DNA of 61,979 bases from an uncultured Spirochaetota bacterium (GTDB lineage: Bacteria; Spirochaetota; UBA4802; UBA5550), in the NCBI GenBank assembly GCA_937872225.1, contig CALMRZ010000001.1, positions 1 to 61,979 of the forward strand, in the 5' to 3' direction. The notes under the pieces were generated by a model, which ran no database searches, was not told the DNA's origin, and was given only the letters and a program-made list of their open reading frames with translations. Position 1 is the stretch's first letter. Every line of letters starts with the position of its first letter. The position numbers and the translations under genes are program-made. Positions 1,369-60,951 of the stretch are shown piece after piece.

Positions 1369-1491
1369 TTTTACTCTGACCCCCTGACAGACTGGGAAAA
1401 CAATATAGGCTGATTACATCAATTTACTCTGACCCCTGGATCTAACCAAATGGGATGAAACCATCATGGATACTAAATTTACTCTGACCCC
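1369..1491 (+). repeat. Cluster of three dispersed tags between rarA and the transglutaminase-like gene
   Basis: Three direct copies of (T)TTTACTCTGACCCC at 1369-1383, 1423-1436 and 1478-1491, spaced 54 and 55 bases apart. The first starts just after the rarA stop. The third is inside the first codons of the next gene and supplies its residues FTLTP. The near-constant 54-55 base period suggests a small tandem array. Confidence 0.75.
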
Positions 1492-8432: not shown

Positions 8433-8965
8433 GTTTTATATGTAAATGTTTTGCCATGTTTTCCGGCATATCCGGGAATTATTGATATCCTTCACTTTCC
8501 TTCCGGGGCTCCGATACATTTCAACATCACAGTGCCGTCATCTTCAAGATTGTCATAATCCATAACTATTTTATTTTATAGAGATGAAAAGGATGAATTG
8601 AAAATGGTTCTTTCCCGCACGCGCCCTCCGGAGGATGTTGGGAGAAATTTCATGCCAACAGGATTTAATCCTTATATAAAAACATGTTTGGGTGGAATTT
8701 AATCTGCGATTTTACTCTGACCCCGCCGGGGCGGCAGTAAAAATTTTCATCGATTAACAGTGCCCGGAGCGCCCTTGAATAATTTATTCAAAAAAAAGAA
8801 TTTTTTTTGACAAAAAAAAGGGGTGATATTTTCTGATTCACATATTTACACTGGGTGAAAAAAGTGTTATTTTAGTACCGTGTATTTCGTAACGTCAGTG
8901 TAACCCGGCAGAACTGACGGAGTTCCGCGGGTCCGTAATTTAATCATGAGAACCAGGGTGGGGAT
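8433..8965. other. Non-coding stretch with a tag hairpin and an A/T-rich leader
   Basis: No credible gene in 533 bases. It holds the tag-derived hairpin at 8710-8742 and a run of A and T with a TTGACA at 8807-8812 about 155 bases before the acidic zinc-ribbon gene. That hexamer is a possible -35, but I see no good -10 at the right distance. Confidence 0.6.
8710..8742. repeat. Dispersed tag folded into an inverted repeat
   Basis: The tag TTTTACTCTGACCCC (8710-8724) is followed by sequence that lets it fold back. TTTTACT (8710-8716) pairs with AGTAAAA (8736-8742) and CCCC pairs with GGGG around a GCC loop. This is the only copy I saw that carries its own complementary arm. Confidence 0.6.
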
Positions 8966-27491: not shown

Positions 27492-27634
27492 TTTTACTCT
27501 GACACCGGTGTTTCTTTTGCATTTGCCGATAGTTATCGGTGATAGAATCTGTCGGTATTGTGCTCTGACCCCGAAAAACACAGGGAAATGCGGATACACG
27601 GCCCGATAGTTATCGGTAATGCTGCTTTGACCCC
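27492..27634 (+). repeat. Composite repeat: three tags and two CCGATAGTTATCGG palindromes
   Basis: Between two convergent genes. TTTTACTCTGACACC at 27492-27506, palindrome CCGATAGTTATCGG at 27526-27539, tag remnant TGCTCTGACCCC at 27561-27572, the same palindrome at 27603-27616 and TGCTTTGACCCC at 27623-27634. A related arrangement occurs at 35202-35377. Confidence 0.75.
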
Positions 27635-34946: not shown

Positions 34947-35017
34947 AGCGGGTGATGGGAATCGAACCCACGTGACCAGCTTGGAAGGCTGGAGTTCTAC
35001 CACTGAACTACACCCGC
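34947..35017 (-). tRNA. tRNA-Gly (anticodon TCC)
   Basis: 71 bases on the minus strand. Acceptor GCGGGTG pairs with CACCCGC, the D-arm is GTTC-AGTGGTA-GAAC, the anticodon stem CCAGC/GCTGG has loop CTTCCAA (anticodon TCC, reading GGA and GGG), and the T-arm contains TTCGATT. The discriminator base is T and CCA is not encoded. A TATTAT box lies about 11 bases upstream of the 5' end. Confidence 0.97.
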
Positions 35018-35201: not shown

Positions 35202-35377
35202 TTTTACTCTGACACCGGGTAAATAATAATTATAGTCCGATTGTTATCGGTTCTATGTTCAGAGCATTCTGTTAGTATCTGTTCAAGGCATATCCTTAAC
35301 TTGAATACATTTATATTTCATGTTATGGTTATTTTTTTACTCTGACCCTGTGTTTACTCCATTTCACCGATAACTAG
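35202..35377 (+). repeat. Composite repeat: two tags each followed by a CCGATA palindrome
   Basis: TTTTACTCTGACACC at 35202-35216 with CCGATTGTTATCGG at 35237-35250, then TTTTACTCTGACCC at 35335-35348 with the half-palindrome CCGATAACTAG at 35367-35377. Distances from tag start to palindrome start are 35 and 32 bases, close to the 34 bases at 27492. Confidence 0.7.
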
Positions 35378-60403: not shown

Positions 60404-60951
60404 GCTCAATGCCACGGGTATGACTCCTGCCGATCACCATAAAACGGGAACGCGGCAGTTGGCAATAATAATTCGGGGCCGGGAAGCATAAAAAACCCGC
60501 GCTGCCGTGTAGGAAAGCTTTTTGAACCTGATACCAGGTGGGTTCCCGCACGGCAGATCAGGCCTTCCCCGCGAGGGGCATGGCCATTGCAGCCAAATAT
60601 TGGGATCCCTAAAAAGCTTTAGGTTCAAAAAAATATAATTCCTATCACCAACAGCGCAGGCGACTTCTTATAAGGTAATGACCCCTTCGTTTGGCAACAA
60701 GTTTTTTTGGCGCAATTCGGGAAAAACCGGCGGTTGAATTTTTCATGGATTTGCTTGAAATATTTGTGGAAATTATTCATTGACATCATTATACTTATTG
60801 GATATCTCATCACTCTCAATGTGCGACTTTGCCGCGTAAGGTGGCAGGGGATGTCCAATCTTATACTAAAGACTGGACAATATGCATGCATATCGTGCGG
60901 CCGGGTCCGGCCGTTCAGCCTTTCAACAGTACATCAACAGGGGTAGTGGCA
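60404..60951. other. Non-coding stretch with structured inverted repeats
   Basis: 548 bases without a gene. CTGCCGTG (60502-60509) pairs with CACGGCAG (60549-60556), enclosing ACCTG-ATAC-CAGGT (60526-60539). TTTTTGAACCT (60520-60530) is the reverse complement of AGGTTCAAAAA (60621-60631). AT-rich sequence with possible promoter elements follows to 60800 and precedes the final gene. Confidence 0.55.

Follow-up and report, generated by a model that had tools for sequence, protein, structure and literature searches.

Composite intergenic repeats of a TIRYT-type terminal repeat and a directional palindrome in a genus of Spirochaetota

Background

The closest described systems are the TIRYT/TIRtron elements, whose TIRs share the motif GGGGWSAS (Di Nocera et al. 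2013, PMC3733652); TIRYT has also been treated as subclass 2.1 TnpA-Y1 (Quentin et al. 2018, PMC6006769), and a literature search on the name TIRYT returned these two papers only. The repeats considered here consist of two short modules, a tag, T (TTTACTCTGACMCC), and a 14-base palindrome, P (CCGATAGTTATCGG), on whose exact words a literature search found no related report. They resemble the TIRYT/TIRtron system in their association with an IS200-like Y1 transposase of about 200 aa with HuH and Y...NP motifs, in flanking repeats that include GGGGTCAG, which fits GGGGWSAS, and in moderately abundant dispersed copies that are single, dimeric or grouped. They differ from it in that the flanking repeats of one transposase clade (clade A) are direct, not inverted, an unrelated palindrome alternates with the dispersed copies at a phase of ~21 bp, and the host phylum is Spirochaetota.

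The REP/BIME/REPIN repeats with RAYT are the second point of comparison. Short intergenic palindromes with a conserved neighbouring tag, clusters and alternating arrays, a tie to a Y1 transposase and polymorphism between relatives are common to both, and P is a REP in the broad sense of a short palindrome with many, mainly intergenic copies. Unlike REP/RAYT, the palindrome and the tag are separable, have different host ranges, and part company at the transposase genes, where the palindrome is missing from the flanks; unlike GTAG-type REPs, no conserved GTAG/GTGG/GGAG stands at the hairpin foot in the 47 P contexts of the window's genome. Noc boxes, matS and parS are chromosomal recognition motifs that P recalls as a 14-16 bp near-palindrome with tens of copies, some within genes at native codons; P differs from them in its conserved asymmetric centre, its tandem arrays, its large copy-number swings between close relatives and in that no cognate protein was found. 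The T-P arrays are classed here as a new variant of REP/TIRtron (REP/BIME-like) composite repeats, and the reading that we lean towards is that both modules are handled jointly.

The T and P modules of the window

The window is the whole stretch of DNA that was analysed, 61,979 nt of contig CALMRZ010000001.1 (GCA_937872225.1) from an uncultured Spirochaetota bacterium, within a metagenome-assembled genome of 4.69 Mb. Its modules are as follows.

1370-1491, forward strand: three solo T modules without P (starts 1370, 1423 and 1478), 53 and 55 bp apart
8711-8724, forward strand: solo T module, intergenic
27492-27506, forward strand: T module TTTTACTCTGACACC, in the clade A TIRYT terminal-repeat form
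27526-27540, forward strand: P module CCGATAGTTATCGGT, hairpin with a 6-bp stem and the loop AGTT
27559-27572, forward strand: T module variant TGTGCTCTGACCCC, 30 bp before the second P
27603-27617, forward strand: P module CCGATAGTTATCGGT, exact copy
27625-27634, forward strand: degenerate T module CTTTGACCCC, 8 bp past P, from direct reading and a one-mismatch scan
35202-35216, forward strand: T module TTTTACTCTGACACC, lying upstream of mraZ
35237-35251, forward strand: P module variant CCGATTGTTATCGGT, the commonest one-mismatch form of P
35335-35349, forward strand: T module variant TTTTACTCTGACCCT
35367-35376, forward strand: half P CCGATAACTA, 3' arm lost, without a hairpin

Exact palindromes are found at 27526-27539 and 27603-27616; the palindrome at 35237-35250 has one mismatch (CCGATTGTTATCGG), and the palindrome-like CCGATAACTAGCC at 35367 is missing its 3' arm and forms no hairpin. 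The window has 7 palindrome matches at two mismatches or fewer (0.38 expected) and 12 tag matches at three or fewer (2.2 expected); the window's tags carry the clade A form of T. The original prediction described partly duplicated units at 27492-27634, with three tag forms and two palindromes, and the sequence bears this out. It had also measured the palindrome as starting 34, 35 and 32 bases after a tag; these distances are correct, but the third of these palindromes is the broken one. The constant spacing drawn from them does not hold even at this site, since 44 bases separate the start of the tag at 27559 from that of the second P at 27603, and the range of 32-35 is a small-sample coincidence.

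The three tags at 1370-1491 lie between two same-strand genes, and the last of them overlaps the predicted start of the downstream gene. The second T-P site adjoins a tRNA (34947-35017, reverse strand); elsewhere the window holds a 6S RNA (60490-60665, reverse strand; RF00013, 87.4 bits). No Rfam family was found at the T-P site.

Copy number and gene context

Both words are strongly over-represented genome-wide: the 4.69-Mb genome holds 47 exact copies of P and 59 dispersed exact copies of T, with none of either in the backward-read control; that copies would be spread over the whole genome had been rightly anticipated. With up to one mismatch P has 139 matches, a few of which are counted on both strands. 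Context was analysed in stretches around every exact copy, with gene positions taken from our own codon-based gene calls. P is intergenic in 38 of 47 copies and T in 52 of 59, against sampled loci that are ~76% coding; a location between convergent genes, which had been anticipated, applies to only 9 of the 38 and 8 of the 52. Orientation and gene arrangement around the copies are mixed, P also occurring between divergent genes and within genes, and the majority of T, like that of P, are solo copies. Neither module shows replication polarity relative to local GC skew.

A search of 84,980 species genomes for the composite T-P pattern returned only records named 'MAG: Spirochaetes bacterium'. 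T is essentially confined to one genus. P reaches beyond it into several other families of the order, where its distribution is patchy and without T nearby, and is absent from most. T and P thus have separate histories, T with TIRYT transposases and P without T in other families.

T as the end of Y1 transposase units

The window's genome has five Y1_Tnp matches; two (L011 and L012) are flanked by inverted GGGGTCAGAGCC-type repeats and one (L013) has TTTACTCTGACACC on both sides in direct orientation. The comparison took in 16 Y1 genes, drawn from this genome, from five sister species and from a further genus of the same family. TIRYT transposases are Y1 transposases with HuH, W and Y-x-x-x-NP motifs; here NHFH/NHIH and Y..YNP motifs are seen, the Pfam Y1_Tnp match is above the cut-off, and the NCBIfam match to REP-associated tyrosine transposase is just under it (77.5 and 64.1 bits; cut-off 80). 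T flanks all 16 genes, with GGGGTCAG or one-base variants on both sides of each. The genes form two clades that are fully separated in the tree with 100% support: clade A (NHFH or DHFH; 9 genes) has direct flanking repeats in 9/9, and clade B (NHIH; 7 genes) has the inverted repeats of described TIRYTs in 7/7. T is the end repeat of TIRYT-type Y1 tyrosine transposases, with the GGGGWSAS motif, and clade A, whose form the window's tags carry, is a direct-repeat variant.

In most pairs of TIRYT units from different species, similarity begins 3-9 nt outside T on the 5' side; at the clade A-type right end it ceases no more than 1 nt from T's last base (L060_7118/L089_83 and L060_6406/L189_2224). 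No relative of the clade A transposase was found in PDB by sequence. The IS200-like gene L009 was considered as a mobiliser and rejected, having no T or P nearby. Four places share longer repeats containing or ending at T, two of them at the ends of contigs C18 and C40 (L049:1-50 and L059:2159-2208; also L060:7118 and L089:79); because contigs end in such repeats, unassembled multicopy elements bounded by T are suggested.

P does not accompany T at these units: the 400 bp on either side of each of the 16 TIRYT genes contain no copy, so the element of the transposase itself can do without P. Across species, counts of T and P do not track the number of TIRYT genes.

P as a directional word

P is directional. 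On its GT strand the base T follows in 38 of 46 copies of the window's genome and in 13 of 14 in another species, G020, giving CCGATAGTTATCGGT, and the base on its 5' side is free; the 3' base is favoured across families, including in coding copies that encode TDNYR. The word folds weakly (stem of 5-6 bp, 4-nt loop, -4 to -5 kcal/mol).

Coding copies lie at conserved protein motifs, such as GSGPIVIGQA of carB and PIVIGG of a YgiQ-type radical-SAM protein; in alignments to solved homologues, those in ketol-acid reductoisomerase (TDNYR) and HypF (PIVIG) show no insertion at the site. The window's genome has 9 coding copies where 0.4 is expected under a codon-draw model; with 0.2-0.4 expected, G020 has 5, G021 has 4 (two in one protein) and G037 has 8, about 5 of them independent, all on our own gene calls and a model that was trained on P-free genes, genes with P being omitted, and that may underestimate chance. 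On this footing, many coding copies have been gained at native codons without insertion; transposition cannot make such copies, and they tell against the joint-handling reading given below. If the coding excess holds, P is not merely an insert and behaves like a recognition word.

It is conceivable, though we hold it doubtful, that P, like parS, Noc boxes or matS, is a site recognised throughout the genome by a sequence-specific DNA-binding factor, and not a mobile element; its copies would arise by mutation and be kept by selection in and between genes, and the T-P arrays would set this factor and TIRYT-derived T ends on one helix face. The coding copies at conserved motifs without indels, their excess in four genomes, the 3' base favoured across families and the 21-bp steps of the arrays described below, equal to two helical turns, all agree with such a factor, as does the complete lack of exact P in each of 13 P-negative genomes of the same family. 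A housekeeping site would not be expected to swing from 5 to 129 exact copies between species of one genus, and the lack of polarity with GC skew, the conserved asymmetric loop and a codon model that may underestimate chance also tell against it. The search for a gene common to the neighbourhoods of the densest P arrays, as the cognate factor, gave no candidate, and the neighbours differ. In its widest form this reading would make CCGATAGTTATCGGT the word of an undescribed sequence-specific system, patchy in one Spirochaetota order and shaping codon choice in conserved genes, that in one genus became coupled at a 21-bp phase with Y1 transposase ends as composite nucleoprotein arrays; we put this forward only tentatively.

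The copies of P in family f7 (G029 and G037) were rejected as dispersed repeats because they trace mostly to one multicopy gene family encoding TDNYR. No paired palindromes were found in viral contigs. Two copies in G021 (L284:1259 and L285:1222) are each precisely centred in a long, perfect inverted repeat whose arms extend the 14-mer by 20 and 12 bp; it looks as though a P end had folded back and its flanking sequence had been copied around it.

Phasing of T and P

The joint occurrence of T and P was surveyed in six species of the genus, in which they lie within 30 bp of each other at 68 + 66 places (134 pairs). Spacers of 6-9 bp account for 87 of the 134, against 17 expected; by search, they number 45/68 and 42/66, against 8.8 and 8.5 if spacing were uniform (p about 1e-21 and 1e-24). 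This corresponds to ~21 bp from start to start and to alternating units of 42 bp. The composite of tag and palindrome is thus real and not due to chance, as proposed, and it is larger than the window alone shows. Neighbouring P modules, mostly in the same orientation, have a 7-bp spacer, with a 21-bp extension at 28 bp, and their arrays have a period of 21 bp. The extreme case is the species G003, in which T and P alternate in tandem steps of 42-43 bp. In the window's genome, T-P copies are mostly at wider, looser spacings of 15-30 bp, which may reflect decay or relaxed building.

Tandem P arrays with the 21-bp period and changing 7-bp spacers are seen at L053:2060-2158, L112 and L116; the first is at the end of a contig (G000:C27), which breaks inside the array. 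In the T-P arrays of G003, G004 and G005, for example G003:C1:14297-14412, the P loop (GT or AC strand) is found both ways round relative to the neighbouring T at equal spacing; the palindrome therefore appears to change orientation on its own, without T.

The composite was first described as one miniature mobile element, constant in length at ~48 bp, whose tag and palindrome would move together; this form is now largely refuted and very unlikely. Homologous T-11-P units do recur between species, some T-spacer-P stretches of ~40 bp are homologous between loci and species at 86-91%, and G003 has its tandem units; against this, the order and orientation of T and P vary freely across the genus, all 87 close spacers differ in sequence, and most modules are solo. 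The spacing in the window, and with it the 48-base length, is not the rule in the genome, the genus-wide lock being that of 6-9 bp, and the order is no more constant.

Turnover between species

The arrays are polymorphic between species, with sites filled in some and empty in others, and the expected differences between relatives are seen: the window's genome and its closest relative hold different modules at shared sites, which in other species are empty. Upstream of mraZ, the window's genome and G004 (coding region 85% identical) hold different sets of T and P; G003, G005 and G001 lack both modules, and in G002 the gap contains clade B-type tags at another place. Beside the gene for a thiamine-binding protein (27.7 kb), there are two P in the window's genome and three in G004, and the site is empty in G003 and G005. 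G004 shares the T-P pair at 27492 and 27526, in the corresponding position, but its spacer has diverged. At further orthologous sites the outer boundaries are kept and the inner units exchanged. At L209 (G004:C11, ~75000-76050), an apparent antitoxin/PIN-toxin-like gene pair, judged visually from its translation, is enclosed by near-duplicate sequences, each with P or a P-like copy at its end, and is missing from the orthologous place in the window's genome.

Classical REPs have been proposed to act as transcription terminators or mRNA-stabilising RNA hairpins; such a role for P, with T incidental, is scarcely credible: P folds, is often near gene ends and in the two G021 copies sits inside longer inverted repeats, but no U-run follows it, the stem is weak, copies are found within genes, between divergent genes and in either orientation, and a terminator needs neither a conserved loop nor the 3' T.

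Proposed joint handling of T and P

The somewhat favoured reading is that the window site is one local copy of composite intergenic repeats dispersed in this genus of Spirochaetota, made from T, a clade A TIRYT end, and P, which are handled jointly. A resident TIRYT-type Y1 HuH tyrosine transposase, here of clade A, would recognise T and may move or leave copies of it via single-strand DNA; solo and clustered T would then be non-autonomous or scar copies of the TIRYT element. P, as a hairpin-forming word, may serve as a hairpin landmark or a protein site coupled to T at two helical turns, with one module per ~21 bp and the spacer sequence irrelevant. One DNA-processing complex could handle both modules in the same reaction, most simply the transposase with T as end or guide and P as landmark, and the arrays would turn over between species and decay in the window's genome. 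In IS608 the cleavage site and the hairpin are a set distance apart, so that the phase could plausibly have a transposase-based reason; what speaks most against this is that P is missing at the ends of the transposase genes themselves.

If this account is true, a second, independent word can be combined with dispersed repeats of transposase ends into regular composite arrays, and the arrays are a natural test of whether a Y1 transposase needs a hairpin at a set distance from its end sequence. That P stands at native codons in several families suggests an undescribed DNA-recognition system, and the clean split of two sister transposase clades into direct and inverted end repeats bears on how domesticated-looking transposases define their ends.
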